NCBI RefSeq assembly: GCF_003688895.1
Contig: NZ_REFV01000002.1
Span: 124,001-188,000 of the forward strand
Reading direction: 5' to 3'
DNA from: Dokdonia sinensis
Lineage (GTDB): Bacteria > Bacteroidota > Bacteroidia > Flavobacteriales > Flavobacteriaceae
DNA length: 64,000 nt
Part shown: piece by piece, positions 6,314 through 62,289 of the stretch
How positions within the stretch are numbered: the stretch's first letter is position 1
Layout of the letters: each line of letters opens with the position of its first letter
The notes under the pieces: generated by a model
What the model saw: the letters and a program-made list of their open reading frames with translations, nothing else
The model's database searches: none
What the model was told of the DNA's origin: nothing
Program-made: the position numbers and the translations under genes

Positions 6314-6384
6314 CTGAGGTGGTTGAGTGATTTTCTTTAAAACGCAGAGCGTTTTAAAGAAAATTGTATCGAAACCTCCGGAAT
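6314..6384 (+). repeat. Variable-stem hairpin repeat, copy 1
   Basis: Conserved left end CTGAGGTGGTTGAGTG and right end TTGTATCGAAACCTCCGG enclose a perfect 15-bp stem (6331-6345 with 6349-6363, loop AGA). The stem sequence differs from those of the other copies. Confidence 0.85.
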
Positions 6385-13881: not shown

Positions 13882-14327
13882 AAAGATAGGGGTTCAAATG
13901 TGAATTTTTATTGTTGATAAAAGGAAGCGCTCTTTCACTTAGATTTCACTATATATTCCAATCTTTTTAATTTTCAATCCAATTGTTCATTTTTTTGCAT
14001 TGCCAAAAAAAACGAACCAAAAAAACGCTAGGCCGTGTAAAACTTCGCTAAAAATTTCCCTCGTTTCGGCGCAAAATAAAGGTGTCGTCATCTCAATACA
14101 ATTTTCTTATATAATTAAAATCTGTAGTACTAATATAGCATATGAGGCTGGCGCTATTTTGCTTAACCCTTCACTCACATCATTTTTTACGCGAAGTTTT
14201 TCAAAGCCATTTTTAGCTCCATTCGACGAAATTTATAGTCAAAAAATAACCTCTCAGAGATATTATTTGTCTTTTTGTAAAAGTGTTTTGCTGTGGATAA
14301 CGATACTTCGATTACGCTCAGTACAAG

Positions 14328-46339: not shown

Positions 46340-47212
46340 ATGATGACGAAATTTTCAAGAATCATTCAGGGCTGTATGACGTGGGGTGCCTGGGGTAAGC
46401 AATTCAATGAGCAAGAGATGATTGCGACGATGCACCATTGTTTGGAAGCTGGCATCACCACCTTTGACCACGCAGATATTTATGGGGATTATACGACAGA
46501 GGAGGATTTTGGTAACGCTTTCGCGAAAGCGGACATCCCAAGAGACTCCATCCAGCTCATAAGCAAGTGCGGTATCCAGATGAAAGGAGAGGCGCGACCA
46601 GAAAACACCATAAAACACTACCAGTACGACGCAAACTACGTCATCTCCAGCGCCGAACGATCGCTTAAAATGTTGCAGACGGAATATCTTGATCTATTCC
46701 TGTTGCACCGACCGAGCCCTTTATTACGTCCTGACGAAGTAAGTAAGGCGGTGGAACAATTGAAGTCTCAAGGAAAAATTAAAGCCTTCGGTCTTTCAAA
46801 CTTTACTCCAGCGCAAACGGATTTAGTAAGAACCAAAACCGAAGTGGTGGCAAACCAAATAGAAATTTCCCTCACCACTAGAGAATCGCTTACGGATGGA
46901 AGCCTAGATTATATGATGACACACGGCATAGCGCCTATGAGTTGGAGTCCGCTGGGGAGTGTTTTTAGAGAAGACACCCCGCAAAATCAGCGTATCAAAA
47001 AGAAACTGAAATCGCTGAGTGAAAAATACAATGCCAAAGACGACCAATTGTTACTGGCCTGGCTTCTTAAACATCCATCTGGCATTCATCCAGTAATAGG
47101 AACCACAAATAAAGAACGGATTACAAATGCCGTCACAGCTTCAGACATTGAACTGGAGTTAAAAGACTGGTTTGAATTGCTAGAGGCGAGTGTAGGGGAG
47201 GAAGTGGCTTGA
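46340..47212 (+). CDS. Aldo/keto reductase
   Basis: The 290-residue protein resembles E. coli YdhF. It has the catalytic tetrad region (Asp and Tyr in TFDHADIYGDY, Lys in LISKCGIQ, His in LFLLHRPSP) and NADPH site (FGLSNFTPAQ; VIGTTNKERI). The substrate is unknown. M2 may be the true start. A full palindrome at 46516 encodes NAFAKAD. Confidence 0.92.
   Translation: MMTKFSRIIQGCMTWGAWGKQFNEQEMIATMHHCLEAGITTFDHADIYGDYTTEEDFGNAFAKADIPRDSIQLISKCGIQMKGEARPENTIKHYQYDANYVISSAERSLKMLQTEYLDLFLLHRPSPLLRPDEVSKAVEQLKSQGKIKAFGLSNFTPAQTDLVRTKTEVVANQIEISLTTRESLTDGSLDYMMTHGIAPMSWSPLGSVFREDTPQNQRIKKKLKSLSEKYNAKDDQLLLAWLLKHPSGIHPVIGTTNKERITNAVTASDIELELKDWFELLEASVGEEVA
46516..46531. repeat. Iterated palindrome, full form, inside the aldo-keto reductase gene
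   Basis: Perfect 16-mer, read as AFAKA in a loop after the Tyr active-site segment. Confidence 0.95.
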
Positions 47213-47255
47213 TTAAATCGAATTCGAAACTGAAATCGAAGTTGAAGATGATGTC

Positions 47256-47318
47256 GGAGGTTTCGATACGATTTACAATAGCGCAACGCGCTATTGTAAA
47301 TCACTCAACCACCTCAGA
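47256..47318 (-). repeat. Variable-stem hairpin repeat, copy 2 (reverse)
   Basis: CGGAGGTTTCGATAC at one end and CACTCAACCACCTCAG at the other. Inner stem of 15 perfect pairs (47271-47285 with 47289-47303, loop AAC): the same geometry as copy 1 but a different stem sequence. Confidence 0.9.
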
Positions 47319-47353
47319 TAGTTAAGCTGATTTAAAATTTATTTAAAAATAAA

Positions 47354-47418
47354 GGTGGTTGAGTGTTTTTTGAAGAAGCGATTAGCTTTTTTAAAAAATG
47401 TATCGAAACTACCGGAAT
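47354..47418 (+). repeat. Variable-stem hairpin repeat, copy 3
   Basis: Stem TTTTTTGAAGAAGC with GCTTTTTTAAAAAA, loop GATTA. The two non-Watson-Crick positions are G-T, that is G-U in RNA. Confidence 0.88.
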
Positions 47419-47563
47419 GAAACGAAGAAGCCTCAAAGGATTATGAGTTTCAAGCTTCCTCCTTTGAAGATTGCCTCTGACGACCGAGGCACGAGGGAGA
47501 GGAAGTCTTAAAGATGGATGTTCAGCAACAGTGAGTACAGATTCTATTAAAATTAAAAATCCA

Positions 47564-47630
47564 AGGTGGTTGAGTGATTTTTGAAAAAGCGATGAGCTTT
47601 ATCAAAAATTGTATCGAAACTACCGAAATG
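47564..47630 (+). repeat. Variable-stem hairpin repeat, copy 4
   Basis: Stem ATTTTTGAAAAAGC with GCTTTATCAAAAAT (one A-A mismatch), loop GATGA. Its right end lies nine bases before the SDR start codon. Confidence 0.9.
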
Positions 47631-47639
47631 AAATAAACT

Positions 47640-48389
47640 ATGAGAACAGCACTAATCACAGGAGCAACATCAGGAATAGGAAAAGCCACCGCAACACGAT
47701 TTGCTCGAGAAGGAATAAATCTTATACTATGTGGGAGACGTCAGGAAGAGTTGGATAAACTACAAGAAGAGTTAGGCAATCTTGTAAAAGTTCACACGCT
47801 CAATTTTGACATACGTAGCAATGAAAAAGTAACAGAAGCACTCGCTAGTTTACCTCAAGACTTCCGGCAGATAGATATTCTTATAAACAATGCAGGAAAC
47901 GCTCACGGTCTAGACCCTATCCAAACAGGAAGCGTAGCCGATTGGGACGCAATGCTAGACATCAATGTAAAAGGTTTGCTGTATGTAAGTAAAGCCATCA
48001 TCCCACAAATGACAGAGCGAAAGTCTGGCCACATCATAAACATAGGATCTACTGCAGGGAAGGAAGTATATCCTAATGGTAATGTGTATTGCGCAAGTAA
48101 ACACGCCGTAGATGCCATTAATCAAGGAATGAGACTAGACCTTAATAAGCACAACGTACGAGTAGGTGCCATTAACCCCGCAATGGTCGAAACAGATTTT
48201 AGCAAAGTGCGCTTTAAAGGAGATTCTGAAAGAGCAGAAAAAGTCTACCAAGGTTTTGACTGTTTACAACCCGAAGATATCGCAGATATTATTCACTTCG
48301 TAGTCTCAAGACCATACCACGTGAATATTGCAGACTTAGTGGTTTTTAGTACGGCACAGGCTAGTAGTACTATTGTGAATAGAAATTAA
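47640..48389 (+). CDS. SDR family oxidoreductase (YdfG-like)
   Basis: The 249-residue protein has the NADP motif ALITGATSGIGKATATRFA with an Arg pair (CGRRQEELDKL), NNAG in ILINNAGNAHG, and the active-site Y-x3-K in YCASKHAVDA. It resembles YdfG (serine or 3-hydroxy acid dehydrogenase). It is flanked on both sides by copies of the variable-stem repeat. Confidence 0.92.
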   Translation: MRTALITGATSGIGKATATRFAREGINLILCGRRQEELDKLQEELGNLVKVHTLNFDIRSNEKVTEALASLPQDFRQIDILINNAGNAHGLDPIQTGSVADWDAMLDINVKGLLYVSKAIIPQMTERKSGHIINIGSTAGKEVYPNGNVYCASKHAVDAINQGMRLDLNKHNVRVGAINPAMVETDFSKVRFKGDSERAEKVYQGFDCLQPEDIADIIHFVVSRPYHVNIADLVVFSTAQASSTIVNRN

Positions 48390-48394
48390 TATTG

Positions 48395-48459
48395 CCGGAG
48401 GTTTCGATACTTTTTTATTGAAAACCGAATAGCTTTCAATAAAAAAACTCAACCACCTT
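48395..48459 (-). repeat. Variable-stem hairpin repeat, copy 5 (reverse)
   Basis: GGTTTCGATAC and AACTCAACCACC ends. Stem of 13 perfect pairs (48411-48423 with 48434-48446), 10-base loop. It starts six bases after the SDR stop and may terminate it. Confidence 0.88.
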
Positions 48460-48496
48460 AGATAGTTAAATACATTGAAAATATATGGGCAAATTA

Positions 48497-48560
48497 AGGG
48501 GGTTGAGTGATTTTTATCAGAGCGATAGCGGAGATAAAAATTGTATCGAAACTGCCGAAA
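48497..48560 (+). repeat. Variable-stem hairpin repeat, copy 6
   Basis: GGGGTTGAGTG and TTGTATCGAAACTGCCG ends. Outer stem ATTTTTATC / GATAAAAAT, then an inner GC pair. It ends 12 bases before the AlbA-gene start. Confidence 0.85.
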
Positions 48561-48571
48561 TAGAATAAACA

Positions 48572-49708
48572 ATGATCAACAAACGCCTTCTCGTAAAAAA
48601 TCTTCTCGCACACAATGACGAGAACAGTTTTTATGACAAGAAGCGTAAGATTGACATCGGTAACAAGGAAGGAAAAGCCAAATTCCTAAAGCACATCTGC
48701 GCGCTCTCTAACAGTAATCCAAAAAACAATTCCTACATCGTCATAGGTGTGGACGATGGTGAAAATGCAATCATAGGAGTTCCATTTTTTGACGATAGTA
48801 AATTGCAAAATCTTATTAATGCCTATCTGGAGAATCCGCCTATTATTTCTTATGAAAACATACCTTTTCCTAACCTTCCTACAGATTTGGTGGTGGGACT
48901 TGTCACCATCCGGGCGCAGGACAAACTCACAGCGCTCAAGCGTAATATTTGGAAATATTGGGGAGGAACGGTGTTCTTTCGGGATGGGAGTATGTCTATG
49001 CCTAAGGTTTTTAAAAGTGACATAGTAGATGTAAACAGCGCCATTGTTTCTGCCATTGAGAACCACGCCAAAAATAGCATCGAGCTTACCTTGGACGGTG
49101 TGATGGATTTTGTAAACAACCGCCACAAGGATATGGAGAGCACCTACAAGGTGTTCAAAGAGCAGTTTGTGGTGTGCTGGGCGGGTAAAAAGAAGGTGGT
49201 TAAAGGGGATACCTACTATTCCCGCGTGGATATTGAGCTTATAAACGAGCAGGTAAAACTGTTTTATTCGGCGCTGGATGAGGTTTCTATTTCTTATGAT
49301 AATGACACGTTTACGATTTTAGAATATGTGCATTTAGGAGTACAAGAGCAATTTAAATATTACCCGCTGGAAGAGGTGGTAATACGCTTTCGCGAAAGCG
49401 GAACCTACACCATCGATACCCATCTCATTTTTGAACCGCCCCAGGTGGACCGCAAGACTTTGTATCATATTTTTAATAACAATAATGTGATTTTTTACAA
49501 GCTCAAACGTAGTATCGAGCTTAATCAAGGTGAGTGGAAGGACCTGTATAATCTGTCCAACACGTATTTGATTTGCTATCTGAACGGATTTGACTCTGCC
49601 ATTCAGAAGCTTGTAGAATTAAAACCCTTTTTAAAGAAATTTAGTGGTGGCATTTATGGCAGGTATAAAGAAACGATGCGTATTTTAAGGAAAGTGCGTT
49701 ATGAATAA
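48572..49708 (+). CDS. AlbA_2 (Schlafen AlbA) domain ATP-binding protein
   Basis: The 378-residue protein has an N-terminal AlbA_2 domain (about 15-150): NKEGKAKFLKHICALSNSN, then SYIVIGVDDGENAIIGV and VTIRAQDKLTAL. The C-terminal 220 residues are not recognised and there is no helicase or WH tail, so this is a stand-alone form. Proteins of this class often act as transcription regulators or in defence, but nothing nearby supports either. A full palindrome at 49385 encodes IRFRESG. The next gene follows by about 15 bases. Confidence 0.78.
   Translation: MINKRLLVKNLLAHNDENSFYDKKRKIDIGNKEGKAKFLKHICALSNSNPKNNSYIVIGVDDGENAIIGVPFFDDSKLQNLINAYLENPPIISYENIPFPNLPTDLVVGLVTIRAQDKLTALKRNIWKYWGGTVFFRDGSMSMPKVFKSDIVDVNSAIVSAIENHAKNSIELTLDGVMDFVNNRHKDMESTYKVFKEQFVVCWAGKKKVVKGDTYYSRVDIELINEQVKLFYSALDEVSISYDNDTFTILEYVHLGVQEQFKYYPLEEVVIRFRESGTYTIDTHLIFEPPQVDRKTLYHIFNNNNVIFYKLKRSIELNQGEWKDLYNLSNTYLICYLNGFDSAIQKLVELKPFLKKFSGGIYGRYKETMRILRKVRYE
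49385..49400. repeat. Iterated palindrome, full form, inside the AlbA-domain gene
   Basis: Perfect 16-mer, read as RFRES: the third of the three possible frames. Confidence 0.95.
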
Positions 49709-49722
49709 AAGTGATTGTATTT

Positions 49723-50466
49723 ATGGGTAGAACATTAGTTTTTGGAGATATACACGGTGGTCTTAAGGCGCTAAAGCAAGTTATGCAACGCGCAAAAGTT
49801 TCTGCAGAGGATCATCTTATTTTTTTAGGTGATTACGTAGATGGATGGAGTGAGAGTGCGGGGGTGATAGATTACTTGATTACGCTTTCGCGAAAGCAAA
49901 GAACCACCCTCATACGCGGTAACCATGATGACCTCGTACAGCAATGGCTGGAAGGAAGAGCGCTGTCTCCCAAATGGTTGCAACACGGCGGTCAGAGCAC
50001 TATAGATTCTTATAATGCCAAGTCGTCTAAAGAGATAGATAAACATATCGCTTTTTATAAGACATTTAAAGACTATTATATAGATAAGGAAAACCGAATG
50101 TTCTGTCACGCGGGTTTCCAAAATCTCAACGGCCCCGAGCACGAGTGGCACAGCACCGCATTTTACTGGGATCGCACCTTATGGGAAATGGTGTGTGCGA
50201 TGCGGGAAGACCTCGATCCGGAAGATTTATTTTATCCCAAACGATTAAAACTTTTTACCGAAATATTCATAGGTCACACGCCTGTAACAAGAATAAATAG
50301 GACGGAGCCTGTGAATAAGGCAAACGTATGGAATCTAGATACCGGTGCCGCATTTAAAGGAACCCTTACGGTGATGGATGTAGATACGAAGGAGTTCTGG
50401 CAAAGTGATCCTGTAATGCAATTGTACGCAACTGAGAGTGGTCGCAATGAGCAATCCTATAAATAA
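49723..50466 (+). CDS. Metallophosphoesterase (Ser/Thr phosphatase-like)
   Basis: The 247-residue protein has the calcineurin-like motifs in order: FGDIHGGLKAL (GDxHG), FLGDYVDGWSES (GDxxDR-like), IRGNHDDLVQQWL (GNHD) and FIGHTPVTRINR (GHTP). It is likely a protein or nucleotide phosphatase of the PrpA/ApaH type. The frame extends to a GTG at 49711, but MGRTLVFGDIHG is the family start. A palindrome at 49883 encodes TLSRKQ. Confidence 0.92.
   Translation: MGRTLVFGDIHGGLKALKQVMQRAKVSAEDHLIFLGDYVDGWSESAGVIDYLITLSRKQRTTLIRGNHDDLVQQWLEGRALSPKWLQHGGQSTIDSYNAKSSKEIDKHIAFYKTFKDYYIDKENRMFCHAGFQNLNGPEHEWHSTAFYWDRTLWEMVCAMREDLDPEDLFYPKRLKLFTEIFIGHTPVTRINRTEPVNKANVWNLDTGAAFKGTLTVMDVDTKEFWQSDPVMQLYATESGRNEQSYK
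49883..49897. repeat. Iterated palindrome, 15 bp, inside the phosphoesterase gene
   Basis: CGCTTTCGCGAAAGC, read as LSRK just before the GNHD motif. Confidence 0.95.
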
Positions 50467-50561
50467 TTAAGGTAAATGCCTAGTCTAATTTCACAAATAA
50501 CCTTTTGATTAATAGGTTATTAGCTGTTATATTTTGAGTTTTTTGAATGGTGTATTTCGTT

Positions 50562-50580
50562 TATAACGATATCATATTTG
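50562..50580 (+). promoter_or_regulatory. Shared upstream motif of the collagen-like lipoprotein gene
   Basis: TATAACGATATCATATTTG. The 11-mer TATAACGATAT and the CATATTTG box recur upstream of the 51313 small gene, so they may share control. CATATTTG is one base off the -7 consensus. Confidence 0.4.
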
Positions 50581-50603
50581 CACCCTAACAAAAACTCAAT
50601 ATT

Positions 50604-51131
50604 ATGAAAACTTCAAGATTTTTTATGTATTTATTTATGGTCTTTGCCATTACACTCACGGCTTGTTCTGAAGACGGAGAAGATGGTATGGACGGTATGG
50701 ATGGCGCTCCTGGAGCACAAGGACCTGCGGGTGAAGATGGACAGGATGGAGAAGATGGTAATGCAAATGTAGTATCTATTACCATAGACGGATTTCCTAT
50801 TGTAAGTGGGATTAATAACATTACAATTCCAGAAGTCACTCAGGATATTGTAGATAATGGTTTAGTTCTAGGATATACTACTGTTTCTGGAAATCCTTTT
50901 TGGGAAACACTTCCAGTTGTAACTGGAGGTTCGGTAATCTTAGATATAGACAGGATTTTTCTAGAAACTGTAAGGCTAACATCAACCTTTAACCAGACAT
51001 TAGATTTTAGATTCCTAATTATAGAGGGAACTCCACTAGGACGTCAATCTGGAAGTACCCGAGAATACTACGAGATGCAAGGGGTAGATTTTAATGATTA
51101 CGAATCTGTTAAGGAATTCTTTAATCTTTAG
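50604..51131 (+). CDS. Lipoprotein with collagen-like G-x-y repeats
   Basis: The 175-residue precursor has a lipoprotein signal (FAITLTACSEDG), then about nine collagen-like G-x-y triplets (GEDGMDGMDGAPGAQGPAGE and on to about residue 55), and a C-terminal beta-strand domain. Collagen-like triple helices would make it a trimer on the cell surface. No adhesin domain is recognised. A strong terminator follows. Confidence 0.8.
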   Translation: MKTSRFFMYLFMVFAITLTACSEDGEDGMDGMDGAPGAQGPAGEDGQDGEDGNANVVSITIDGFPIVSGINNITIPEVTQDIVDNGLVLGYTTVSGNPFWETLPVVTGGSVILDIDRIFLETVRLTSTFNQTLDFRFLIIEGTPLGRQSGSTREYYEMQGVDFNDYESVKEFFNL

Positions 51132-51157
51132 AATTATTATTGAGCCTCGAAAATTTG

Positions 51158-51196
51158 AAAACCGAATGTTCAGAAATGACATTCGGTTTCTTTTTT
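51158..51196 (+). terminator. Terminator of the collagen-like lipoprotein gene
   Basis: Stem AAACCGAATGT / ACATTCGGTTT with a 9-base loop and a TCTTTTTT tail, 27 bases after the stop codon. Confidence 0.88.
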
Positions 51197-51253
51197 ATGA
51201 ACTTTTGAATTAAGGGGTAAATACCCCTATCCGATTGCGACAATACCACCTCA

Positions 51254-51281
51254 TATAACGATATGATAGGTCGCATATTTG
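51254..51281 (+). promoter_or_regulatory. Shared upstream motif of the 39-residue gene
   Basis: TATAACGATATGAT, then a 6-base insert and CATATTTG. It is the same 11-mer as at 50562, with a different spacing to the -7-like box. Confidence 0.35.
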
Positions 51282-51312
51282 TAGTGTATTAATCACTTAA
51301 CCACATTTTATT

Positions 51313-51432
51313 ATGAAAACGCAAAAAGGAGATTTGGGGCTTCTGGAGCAGTTTATTCAAGACGAAGAGTTTGACGTATCTTACTTTTCGGTAGAGTTTC
51401 CAGATGGGAGTTCTTATGAATATCAAGCTTAG
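51313..51432 (+). CDS. Small protein, 39 residues, unannotated type
   Basis: ATG at 51313 opens a 39-residue frame: it starts MKTQKGDLGLLEQFIQDEEF and ends DGSSYEYQA. It is acidic and has no signal peptide or membrane helix. Support comes from position: its own promoter-like motif upstream, its own strong terminator downstream, and an A-rich start region (TTTTATTATG) like that of its neighbours. No family is recognised. A regulatory RNA is an alternative. Confidence 0.55.
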   Translation: MKTQKGDLGLLEQFIQDEEFDVSYFSVEFPDGSSYEYQA

Positions 51433-51480
51433 ATAACTATCCAAGATTTGAATTAGCCAGCACGTGAGTGTGCTTGAGAC

Positions 51481-51519
51481 ATCGGCTATGAGTTTGAGAA
51501 AACACATAGCCGATTTTTT
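51481..51519 (+). terminator. Terminator of the 39-residue gene
   Basis: 10-bp stem ATCGGCTATG / CATAGCCGAT with a T6 tail, 49 bases after the stop codon. Confidence 0.88.
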
Positions 51520-51564
51520 ATAGAGTTTTCGTAGCTTTAGAACAGAAATTTAAAATAACAACCT

Positions 51565-52704
51565 ATGGGACTTTTTGATAAAATAAAGGAAAAACTGAGC
51601 AACGAGTTTATAGACATCATCGAGTGGCTTGACTATACAGATGATACGATTGCCCACCGTTTTGAACGCTACCAGAACGAGATAAAAAACAACGCAAAAC
51701 TCATAGTAAGGGAAGGACAAACAGCTGTCTTTGTAAATGAAGGCCAGATAGCAGATGTTTTTAAACCGGGAACATATACGCTGAGCACTCAAAACTTACC
51801 CATTCTGACGACTTTAAAAGGTTGGAAATATGGTTTTGATAGTCCCTTCAAAGCCGAGGTCTATTTTGTAAACACGCATTTATTTACTGATGAAAAATGG
51901 GGAACGAAGAACCCTATTACTTTAAGTGATGAGCGCTTTGGACTCGTAGAGATTCGTGCGTTTGGGACTTATGCATTTAAAATAGCAGATGCAGGAATGT
52001 TCATCAAGGAAATTGTGGGGACAGATAATAACTTTACAAATTTTGAGATTAATGAACACCTTAAAAGTCTCATAGCGACTCGATTTACAGATACAGTAGG
52101 AGAAGCAAACCTTCCTATAGAATTATATGCCGCAAATACCTCAGAGCTTTCAGAAACGTGTCAAGATGTTATGAAGCCTGAGTTTATGACGGTAGGTATC
52201 TCGCTGGAGAAATTCTATATTGAGAATGTCTCAATGCCAGAGGATCTTAAGAAGGAGATTTTCGAATACAGTCGTATTGACAAACTGGACTTGGATAAGC
52301 TAACGAAGTTCAAAACTGCAAAAGCTATAGAGGCTGCCGCAGCAAACGAAGGGGGAACGGCTGGCGCAGGAATGGGAATGGGAATGGGCTTTGTGCTAGC
52401 ACAACAAATGGGCGGTATGATGACTCCTAATATGGGAGGGCAACAACAAGCGCAAACTCAAATGAATCAAGGGGCATCTATGCCACCACCTATGCCAGCG
52501 GCAGTTCAATATTTCTACGCCTCTAACGGAGCACAGCAAGGTCCGGTTTCTTTTGAGCAATTACGGGCTCTTTTTGCCAGCCGAACTATCAATAAAGAAA
52601 GCTTGGTTTGGAAACAGGGAATGTCTGGATGGATGGCTTTACAAGAGGTGGAAGAACTCAAAGCTTTTTTAGGAGGGAATACGCCACCGCCCTTACCTGC
52701 ATAA
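51565..52704 (+). CDS. SPFH-like YdjI family protein with C-terminal GYF_2 domain
   Basis: The 379-residue protein starts MGLFDKIKEKLSNEFIDIIE and has an SPFH (YdjI/virion-core-like) domain (about 40-235). A Gly/Met/Gln-rich linker (about 262-312) leads to a GYF_2 domain (about 318-370; QYFYASNGAQQGPVSFEQLR). B. subtilis YdjI acts with YdjF (PspA-like) and YdjG in the membrane stress response. Here the YdjG-like gene follows, separated by one degenerate hairpin repeat and a palindrome. Confidence 0.85.
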   Translation: MGLFDKIKEKLSNEFIDIIEWLDYTDDTIAHRFERYQNEIKNNAKLIVREGQTAVFVNEGQIADVFKPGTYTLSTQNLPILTTLKGWKYGFDSPFKAEVYFVNTHLFTDEKWGTKNPITLSDERFGLVEIRAFGTYAFKIADAGMFIKEIVGTDNNFTNFEINEHLKSLIATRFTDTVGEANLPIELYAANTSELSETCQDVMKPEFMTVGISLEKFYIENVSMPEDLKKEIFEYSRIDKLDLDKLTKFKTAKAIEAAAANEGGTAGAGMGMGMGFVLAQQMGGMMTPNMGGQQQAQTQMNQGASMPPPMPAAVQYFYASNGAQQGPVSFEQLRALFASRTINKESLVWKQGMSGWMALQEVEELKAFLGGNTPPPLPA

Positions 52705-52749
52705 TAGATAATGGTTGCTCATTTTTAGTTTGTTCAAACTAAAAATCTA

Positions 52750-52808
52750 AGGTGGTTAAGATTTTTTAAAGAGCTTGTAGCTTTTTTGATAATTCTATCG
52801 AAATCTCT
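52750..52808 (+). repeat. Variable-stem hairpin repeat, copy 7 (degenerate)
   Basis: AAGGTGGTTAAGATTTTTTA to TCTATCGAAATCTC. Ends and stem partly decayed, but the plan is recognisable. Confidence 0.6.
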
Positions 52809-52840
52809 CATTTAAAATGCATCCTTTTCAAATTTAAAAT

Positions 52841-52853
52841 TTTCGCGAAAGCG
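52841..52853. repeat. Iterated palindrome, right-extended, 5' of the YdjG-like gene
   Basis: TTTCGCGAAAGCG, 13 bases before the start codon. Confidence 0.9.
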
Positions 52854-52866
52854 AACCCAAAATACA

Positions 52867-53976
52867 ATGACAGAAACACCTGTCCATAAAACCGAACTTA
52901 AAAAAGCTTGCATTAACTGTGGGGCAGAGCTTAAGTACAAGCCTGGGACCACATCCATAACATGTGACTATTGCGGGCATCAGGAAAAAATTTCTATTGA
53001 AACAAGCACCTTTGAGGAGTTGGAACTCTACCCTTATCTCAAGGAAATGGGAGATCAGCGCCATAGTGAGGAAATCTCAATGCTGCATTGCAAGAACTGC
53101 GGAGCAAACCAACACGTAGAGGAAAATTATAAGTCTCTGCATTGCGTTTATTGCAGTATGCCGCTTATTCTGGAAGATGCTTACAAGGAAGATTGGATTC
53201 TGCCTGGAGCAGTTTTACCTTTTCAAATAGACACACAAAAGTCATTTTTGATATTTCAAAAATGGGTTAAGGGTCTTTGGTGGGCGCCCAATAAACTTAA
53301 AAAAGCATCTCTAGATCCTCAATTTACGAAGGGGTTATATTTACCCTATTGGACTTTTGACGCTCATCTAGATGCAGATTATACTGGACAGCGCGGCGAG
53401 TACTACTACGTGACTGAAACCTACAGAGATAGCAAAGGAAACACAAAGAGCAGGCAAGTACGTAAAACACGATGGTACCCTGCATCTGGTCACGTTTCGG
53501 GATTTGTAGACGATACGTTGGTAAAAGCCTCTGGGCAGCGGGCAGGTCGCGTTCCGTCAAAAATTGCAAGATGGAATTTAAAGAAGTTGCAACCTTTTCA
53601 CAGTAGCTTTCTGGCAGGTTTTGTGACCGAAAAGTACACCATTCCTCTTAAAGATGGACATTTAAAATCCGAAGAGGTTGCCCAAGGAATAGCAACGAGC
53701 TGGGCCAGGAGCGACATAGGTGGAGATACGCAGCGCGTAAGCTCGATAAGTGTTGACCTATCGCGAGAGACGTTTAAACATATTTTGTTACCTGTTTACG
53801 TAAGCGCTTATCGTTACAATGGCAAGGAGTATAATTTCTTCGTAAATGGAGAAACTGGAGCCCTCTCCGGTAATAGGCCCTATTCCTTTTGGAAAATCTT
53901 CTTTGCGGTTCTCGGTGTTCTCATCATTATCGGGATTATTGTGCTTTTTGCACAACAGGCAGAGCAATTGCAGTAG
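52867..53976 (+). CDS. YdjG-like zinc-ribbon membrane protein
   Basis: The 369-residue protein starts with two zinc ribbons: CINCGAELKYKPGTTSITCD with CGHQEK (about 17-45) and CKNCGANQHVEENYKSLHCV with YCSMP (about 72-100). A middle beta-rich part binds an unknown ligand, and a C-terminal helix (about 341-360; FAVLGVLIIIGIIVLFAQQ) anchors it. In B. subtilis YdjG recruits YdjI to the membrane; the adjacent SPFH gene supports that. Confidence 0.85.
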   Translation: MTETPVHKTELKKACINCGAELKYKPGTTSITCDYCGHQEKISIETSTFEELELYPYLKEMGDQRHSEEISMLHCKNCGANQHVEENYKSLHCVYCSMPLILEDAYKEDWILPGAVLPFQIDTQKSFLIFQKWVKGLWWAPNKLKKASLDPQFTKGLYLPYWTFDAHLDADYTGQRGEYYYVTETYRDSKGNTKSRQVRKTRWYPASGHVSGFVDDTLVKASGQRAGRVPSKIARWNLKKLQPFHSSFLAGFVTEKYTIPLKDGHLKSEEVAQGIATSWARSDIGGDTQRVSSISVDLSRETFKHILLPVYVSAYRYNGKEYNFFVNGETGALSGNRPYSFWKIFFAVLGVLIIIGIIVLFAQQAEQLQ

Positions 53977-55186: not shown

Positions 55187-56146
55187 TTAGTTTAATGTGA
55201 CGACACAGCGTCTATTTTTTGCACGTCCAGCTTCTGTATCATTTGTAGCGATTGGAGCATCTGGACCTTGTGATGTAGTATTGATTTTGTTAGGAGCAAT
55301 ACCATTTCTAGCAAGGTAATTTTTAGCAAAATTTGCTCTTTCTAACCCAAGCCTTGTATTTGTGGTTCTACTGCCTGTGTTGTCGGTATGGCCTGTAATT
55401 GCAACAGTTGCACCTTCGACTTTATCAAGATAACGACTCATTGCACCTACTTTTTCTCGCTGTTCTGGGGTGAGTTGTATGGATGCTTCTGCAGTATCGA
55501 AATATAGAATGAGAGGATTTGCTTTAATATCTGTAGCGATGGCCTCGAGCGCATCTGCTTCTTGTGCAGCTGCATCATCTGTGCGCGTTGTCATACTATA
55601 TTTTATAGGTCCTCTATACACATTTCCATCTGGGACGAGCGATGCGTTGAGTTCACCATACGTATTGATACGTGTAGATGGGATTCCTTTACCTACAAAG
55701 TAGTTTTTTACAGCATTTGCTCGTGCAAGTCCAAGATTTGCAAGTGCAGATGTGTTTTCTTCATCACTATCATAGTAACCTGTAATGTCTACAAATTTTC
55801 CAGTATTCCCATCAGCATTGAGATAGGCATAAAGTTTTCCTATGCCATCATCTACTTGTCCGGAAACGGGTTGAAGAATACTAAATTCTGACGTGTTAAA
55901 ATTAAAATTGTCATTGCTATTAATGGCAAAGCTTCCATCGGGGTCTTTAAGATCAAAGCCCCAACTTGTCGCTGTATCTGCGGTGGTCTCGCTAGCGACG
56001 GCATTACGATTGTCTGTATCGCTTTGTGTTGAAGTTCCTGCAGCTGTTGCTCCTTCTTGAGCTCCGCAGCAGAAAAACCAGGCCAAAATCATACAGATGA
56101 TCATCGTAAGCAACATACCTAGTAGGTATCCTGATTTCTTACTCAT
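55187..56146 (-). CDS. Protein with N-terminal helix and two OmpA-type domains
   Basis: The 319-residue protein has an N-terminal helix (LLGMLLTMIICMILAWFFCC), a linker and two OmpA-like domains: a degenerate one (about 95-180) and a typical one (about 210-319; ITGHTDNTGSRTTNTRLGLE and AKNRRCVVTL). OmpA domains bind peptidoglycan. It is followed by the HhH gene, with which it forms a unit. Confidence 0.85.
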   Translation of the reverse strand: MSKKSGYLLGMLLTMIICMILAWFFCCGAQEGATAAGTSTQSDTDNRNAVASETTADTATSWGFDLKDPDGSFAINSNDNFNFNTSEFSILQPVSGQVDDGIGKLYAYLNADGNTGKFVDITGYYDSDEENTSALANLGLARANAVKNYFVGKGIPSTRINTYGELNASLVPDGNVYRGPIKYSMTTRTDDAAAQEADALEAIATDIKANPLILYFDTAEASIQLTPEQREKVGAMSRYLDKVEGATVAITGHTDNTGSRTTNTRLGLERANFAKNYLARNGIAPNKINTTSQGPDAPIATNDTEAGRAKNRRCVVTLN

Positions 56147-62232: not shown

Positions 62233-62261
62233 GAGATTTCCGCCATAGTTTATCCTGAGCG
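62233..62261. repeat. GAGATTCCCGCC..TTTATCCTGAGCG repeat, copy 2
   Basis: GAGATTTCCGCCATAG then TTTATCCTGAGCG, followed by GATAGTCGAAGGACGGGG, 19 bases before the GNAT start. Confidence 0.75.
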
Positions 62262-62289
62262 ATAGTCGAAGGACGGGGATGAAAAGAAT

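Follow-up and report, generated by a model that had tools for sequence, protein, structure and literature searches.

The window (the whole 64-kb stretch of DNA that was analysed) lies on contig 12 of a genome of 3.65 Mb and carries six clean copies of a hairpin repeat, each 58-62 nt long, plus one decayed copy (Table 1). An earlier note on this DNA had singled out the same seven as one dispersed family, and the family holds up with its seventh member as the decayed one; the coordinates given were correct to a few bases, and two of the copies are now placed on the minus strand. The perfect stems with 3-nt loops that it had reported for the copies at 6318 and 47256 are indeed there. Seven pattern matches were found in the window, against an average of 0.3 and a maximum of 2 in dinucleotide-shuffled windows (n=60); the match at 55465, which is stemless, looks like chance. 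Folding each copy as single-stranded DNA put five of the seven ahead of all 200 shuffles. The fold of 48498-48556 is weaker (z -1.98, equalled by 5/200 shuffles), and for the decayed copy at 52751 four of the 200 shuffles equal the native fold (z -2.49).

Table 1. Hairpin repeats of the window and two candidate members of the wider class.
Feature	Position	Strand	Remarks
Hairpin repeat copy	6318..6379	+	Single; perfect 16-bp inner stem, 3-nt loop
Hairpin repeat copy	47256..47313	-	Left half of a REPIN-like inverted pair; perfect 15-bp stem, 3-nt loop
Hairpin repeat copy	47354..47413	+	Right half of the same pair as the 47256 copy; spacer to 47313 is 40 nt
Hairpin repeat copy	47565..47624	+	87% identity to the 47354 copy across 82 nt
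Hairpin repeat copy	48397..48457	-	Left half of a second inverted pair
Hairpin repeat copy	48498..48556	+	Right half, with the 48397 copy as left half; spacer of 40 nt; poorest fold among the six clean copies
Decayed copy	about 52751..52808	+	Starts GGTGGTTAAGA...; core TGAG gone, stem pairs partly
Short TGAG..CGAA hairpin	14301..14326	-	Apex CGTAAT; may belong to the wider class (candidate)
Short TGAG..CGAA hairpin	62250..62276	+	Apex CGATAGT; may belong to the wider class (candidate)

Across the whole genome there are 41 exact-ended copies, whereas the same pattern read backwards gives none; please note that these counts come from pattern searches and that decayed copies are missed. For the study of pairing we assembled 48 distinct sequences from the fetched loci of this genome, exact or near-exact, with the ends relaxed. 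Small exceptions aside, an element consists of GGTGGTTGAGTG, a stem-loop, two bases and TATCGAAAC, followed mostly by CTCC or TACC. The inner stem-loop ranges from 19 to 42 nt in length, and its register is constant in 47/48 copies.

In the arms of these 48 stems, 567/656 cells are paired (86.4%; 547 Watson-Crick and 20 G.T), compared with a mean of 54.9% and a maximum of 62.2% when partners are shuffled (n=2000). Similarly, the covariation score of the 11 gap-free 60-nt copies is 0.474, against 0.138 after shuffling and at most 0.151 when the arms are slid; of their 15 inner pairs, 13 have changed on both sides and 2 are invariant. The idea that it is the folded structure that is kept is therefore supported, since pairing and covariation exceed both the partner shuffles and the slid controls and are also seen between species at orthologous sites. 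The gathering of more copies did not undo it, as most of these pair too.

The “conserved ends” of the family need to be restated. The outer helix is nearly invariant within the 11 gap-free copies, and it covaries as well across 180 distinct elements (40 from this genome and 140 from others), obtained by a search in which the core letters were fixed and the outer helix had to have 5 or more of its 7 pairs. Variants include GGTGGTT/AACCACC, GGTGGCT/AGCCACC, GGTGTCT/AGACACC, GGTCACT/AGTGACC, and GGACACT/AGTGTCC. In the same set, 74% of the inner stems reach at least 75% pairing. What is constant is the core TGAG...CGAA, with both helices variable but paired.

Elements of the window type are TGAGTR..GTATCGAA hairpins in which another hairpin, free to vary, makes up the apex (TGAGTR-stem-nGTATCGAA). 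In addition, there are elements with a short apex, in which the outer arms are 70% paired although pairing was not demanded (48% after shuffling, maximum 54%). Only 36/88 raw short-apex matches have at least 5 of 6 outer pairs, so many of the raw matches are not elements. Some copies (L230 4708-4776, L233 6432-6508, L234 2500-2576; L053 1437-1520, L055 3382-3449) either have two adjacent hairpins within one set of ends or bear a further palindrome, of CTTCGACTCCGCTCAG type, at the base of the stem.

Where do the copies lie? For 44/48 the midpoint is not within an open frame of 120 codons or longer; the remaining four extend over the 5′ end of a frame with an uncertain start. Among the 38 copies whose neighbouring genes could be classified, 29 sit between co-directional, 7 between divergent and 2 between convergent genes. 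Such placement would suit elements that act as RNA, be it as terminators, mRNA stabilisers or processing signals, with the fold selected in transcripts, and so would the excess of G.T over A.C cells on the listed strand of the 180 elements (74 vs 27; the commonest unpaired cell type is A/G, with 96). That bias is expected wherever one single strand folds, and it fits a single strand of DNA as well as RNA; the association with a nuclease described below points to DNA. Speaking against an RNA role, copies occur in both orientations and as inverted pairs, and the element's patchy spread under the strict pattern (3/18 genomes of the genus and 4/298 of the family) fits mobile DNA. Rfam places no family in the window at gathering score, and a permissive scan of 47200-48620 returned 12 matches, all far under their gathering scores. 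We regard a function in RNA as improbable, and Rho-independent terminators are ruled out by the missing run of T after the stem.

Nine inverted pairs are found among the 41 exact-ended copies, with the GGTGG ends pointing inward across gaps of 31-49 nt. This is the arrangement of REPINs and BIMEs, in which two inverted copies are separated by a short spacer, and two such pairs lie in the window. One inverted pair was compared with its orthologous sites, which are empty in relatives: the distance from flank to flank is 51 nt in two of them versus 259 here, and 24, 22, and 0 nt in three more versus 235, 233, and 210 here. That pair is an insertion.

The same exact ends, enclosing other stems, are also present in records titled Treponema, Gordonia, Microbacterium, Propionibacteriaceae, Anaerolineales, Ignavibacteriae, and various flavobacteria, although a few of these 69 exact-end stretches (e.g., L082 and L107) look like chance. 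Closer to home, the window from 47645 to 53932 and positions 591-5139 of L091, a Marixanthomonas contig, have a common gene order with two repeat-bearing gaps. The same two gaps carry elements in both, and the genes there are 68-77% identical; the likeness may reflect common descent, transfer or repeated insertion.

Orthologous sites are instructive in another respect. Across five related genomes of flavobacteria (two carry the title Marixanthomonas), elements have been retained at matching intergenic positions. In 11 such comparisons, two of them place-swapped, the ends match at 18-21 of 21 positions, the stem-loops range from 17/17 down to 19/41 columns and the 40-nt flanks from 19/48 to 39/40. 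At one site (group G; two genomes with about 90% identity across 4.8 kb), the stem-loops of a pair are swapped from one half to the other; at another (group B), one has moved in this way and the second is not recognisable. Both flanks are shared between the species in these two groups, and the right-half stem-loop of one species is found in the left half in the other with its reading direction unchanged. The simplest reading of these alignments would be inversion in place, the spacer being uninformative in either. The spacers of group I are clear reverse complements of each other in the species compared, but as one flank differs, re-insertion may have occurred instead. In group C the stems appear exchanged with the spacer direction retained, for which we have no simple explanation. 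A partly converted apex between species was also seen.

It is worthwhile asking whether such palindromes need any partner at all, since template switching during replication could perfect and flip hairpins neutrally, with neither selection nor a nuclease. The traded halves and the partly converted apex are what this would produce, and template switching may well be a source of mutations here. As an account of the repeats it is unlikely, since it leaves unexplained an invariant core that is not self-complementary, in ends that match at 18 or more positions even where stem-loops have diverged to 19/41. Nor does it explain the linkage to a clade of nucleases, to which we now turn.

The most likely partner of the repeats is a GIY-YIG protein with a single domain and about 95 residues, not a RAYT transposase. 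A gene for such a protein lies amid repeat copies in the window's own genome (C23:150105-150392, with one in-frame stop) and, likewise amid copies, at loci of Dokdonia, Leeuwenhoekiella, Marixanthomonas spongiae, Bacteroidales, and Anaerolineales. In M. spongiae the gene is enclosed by two copies of the same inverted pair. Within the genus, 4/18 genomes have a homologue above 160 bits, of which three are intact and that of the window genome is broken. Extended elements lie at most 900 bp from all four genes; owing to divergent outer helices, the strict pattern had not picked up two of the four genomes.

Is the linkage a property of this clade, or of GIY-YIG genes at large? None of the 25 fetched paralogues scoring below 80 bits has an element within 600 bp. 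Among loci from the genus and from element-bearing genomes, a set picked in part for genomes that carry elements, extended elements are found at 16/22 loci of at least 120 bits vs 0/36 below. The other 6/22 are without the extended type, and two of those have a short-apex hairpin.

A sample chosen blind to the repeats gives a similar picture. Of 395 Bacteroidota genomes, 36 matched the nuclease at 1e-30, and we examined the 29 best new loci among the 41 matches listed. TGAG...CGAA hairpins flank 23 of these 29 within 600 bp and are absent from the other six; 10 flanked loci have extended hairpins and 19 have short ones, some having both. Flanking on both sides within 600 bp is found at 10 loci, and the median distance to the nearest hairpin is 57 bp. 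A search of the flanks that presupposed no motif ranked TGAG/CGAA inside a 6-bp stem first, at 15/29 loci, with at most 3 loci in 20 mononucleotide shuffles and at most 4 in far flanks.

Repeats that are scattered genome-wide thus also flank the nuclease gene, with exceptions at some loci and in some genomes. Among 34 element-bearing genomes the nuclease profile finds a match of at least 120 bits in 16, only weaker ones in 9 and none at 1e-15 in a further 9. The match at the level of genomes is therefore partial, as 18/34 are missing a high-scoring homologue; it is important to remember that several of the 34 are incomplete drafts and that lone strict-pattern matches in distant genomes may be chance. 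As examples, G290 has 14 relaxed-pattern elements and no nuclease match at 1e-15, and G010, of the same genus as the window, has 8 strict elements and weak nuclease matches only. Gene loss, drafts, another nuclease of the family or a misreading on our part are possible reasons for elements without a high-scoring gene. In the window genome, the in-frame stop in the nuclease gene means that the repeats may be relics, or they may be served by an intact relative at C12:333643-333903. This relative (G000, L266) scores 122 bits and has a CCCTGAGCGTAGCCGAAGGG hairpin nearby; together they are perhaps a second system of the same genome.

The more familiar candidate would be a RAYT (Y1 HUH) transposase moving classical REP or REPIN elements. 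The inverted pairs 31-49 nt apart resemble REPINs and BIMEs, the window genome has one Y1 gene, and on the other strand 11/48 copies start with GGTAG and 31/48 with GGAGG. A REP of the RAYT type has an unpaired GTAG or GTGG foot at its 5′ end; here the GGTAG bases pair with GGTGG. That sole Y1 gene, however, is flanked by a different repeat, CAGACCTACAAGG..., a Y1 match at 1e-3 is missing in 14/32 element-bearing genomes, G009 and G010 are also without one, and the element is present at 3/50 Y1 loci fetched (of 65 matches). With the only Y1 gene carrying other repeats and Y1 loci elsewhere rarely near elements, we have dropped the RAYT as partner and give little credence to the reading built on it. 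The repeat family around that gene deserves a record of its own: its copies run from CAGACCTACAAGGAG to CCTCGCAGGTC with an inner hairpin that differs between copies, and they lie at about 1166-1212 and 1881-1929 of L031, on either side of the RAYT-like Y1 gene (L031:1300-1863).

Turning to the GIY-YIG protein itself, Pfam PF01541 (GIY-YIG) matches the 4 proteins scanned, of 95-103 aa, at 59-71 bits. Y7, Y17, G19, R27, H31, and E64 are invariant across 6 aligned nucleases; these are GIY-YIG-type residues, which have a catalytic role. An AlphaFold2 model of one nuclease is a single small domain (mean pLDDT 90), whose best Foldseek matches are the UPF0213 proteins 1zg2 and 1ywl (TM 0.5-0.57). 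PADLOC and PHROGs returned no family for the three nucleases scanned.

The apices of the hairpins fall into the classes TR-stem-nGTAT (extended), GNNCT, CYTGY, and CGNAGY, and apex class follows nuclease clade. With each of 44 nucleases in a tree assigned the majority apex class of its locus, 7 changes are needed (minimum 3), compared with a mean of 16.9 for shuffled labels, of which 0/200 were as low; near-copies in one genus inflate this clustering, and the tree, built on 98 columns, has 4/40 inner branches strongly supported. CYTGY alone, with 4 rows, is not clearly clustered (38/500 shuffles as low). Because apex class tracks the nuclease, and because the helices vary freely yet pair, it would be the core plus apex of the folded strand that is recognised. 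For the nuclease, this points to recognition of a folded hairpin through its shape and core, and not through stem sequence.

From the structure, linkage and coevolution observed, we infer that the repeats are probably hairpin substrates of the single-domain GIY-YIG nuclease, which would bind, nick and move them. The wider class of elements can be written as [variable outer helix]-TGAG-[apex]-CGAA-[outer helix]; where TGAG faces CGAA between the helices, two neighbouring G.A pairs are predicted. The nuclease would read this core and the type of apex, the helices needing only to pair, so that their sequence could drift through compensating changes. A hairpin that is extruded or single-stranded would be nicked, and the resulting strand exchange would spread copies, build inverted pairs, and flip or exchange halves in place.

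A more ambitious version is offered tentatively, as a conjecture that may well prove wrong. It would have a mobile-element class in several phyla, in which a GIY-YIG nuclease of roughly 95 residues, encoded between its own hairpins, reads the tandem-G.A core of a folded DNA single strand irrespective of stem sequence, its nicking spreading, pairing and flipping the hairpins, and in which the palindromes TGAGCCTGTCGAA and TGAGCGNAGTCGAA are further apex classes. Palindromes of these two types are common in bacteria. If the proposal is right, dispersed bacterial palindromes gain a candidate partner and a recognition rule (constant core, free helices, apex tied to clade). The origin and upkeep of palindromic repeats without a RAYT would then become testable with a small protein and oligonucleotides, and a nuclease that reads fold and core rather than stem would make a useful tool for single-stranded DNA.

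How does this compare with known systems? Ssn, a site-specific single-stranded GIY-YIG nuclease of Neisseria meningitidis with a repeated target, NTS, was reportedly described by Chenal et al. in Nature Communications in 2025. It is reported to be a small GIY-YIG protein with a target repeat scattered over the genome, and to have many homologues whose specificities differ. Ssn with its repeated target would be the nearest known kind, alike in the small GIY-YIG protein and the scattered repeats; the target here differs in being a hairpin of two helices, with free stems around a TGAG/CGAA core, which occurs in inverted pairs and flanks the gene. The REP, REPIN, and BIME elements associated with RAYTs are likewise short intergenic hairpins with inverted pairs and a nuclease-type gene near some loci, but the partner here is GIY-YIG, not Y1 HUH, and stem sequence is unconserved within a genome.

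Integron attC sites have conserved ends, imperfect pairing and a variable terminal hairpin, and are recognised as a folded single strand. The elements resemble them in the first three features; their ends are GGTGGTT...AACCACC, not RYYYAAC...GTTRRRY, and they are not cassette boundaries. It was the way in which the end boxes are oriented that led us to reject attC.

Within the Bacteroidetes, RAYT subclass 2.6 is described as having atypical structures (PMC6006769). The CGTC-tagged palindromic repeats are dispersed hairpins of five phyla for which the available text reports no association with a transposase (PMC3733652); they differ from the present elements in their 8-9 bp stems and CGTC tag, and that text mentions no TGAG/CGAA core. 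Searches of the open-licence literature for the element sequences, or for GIY-YIG together with repeats, gave no relevant report among the matches listed, where the TGAG/CGAA recognition rule did not turn up either.

Two further observations may be of use to others. Y1_Tnp domains were found in unusually long frames, of about 440-580 codons, in L126-L129 and further matches, which are records of Chloroflexota type. In the window itself, a 14-nt palindrome, GCTTTCGCGAAAGC, has 21 occurrences, the first at 1322 and one inside the frame 49711-50466.
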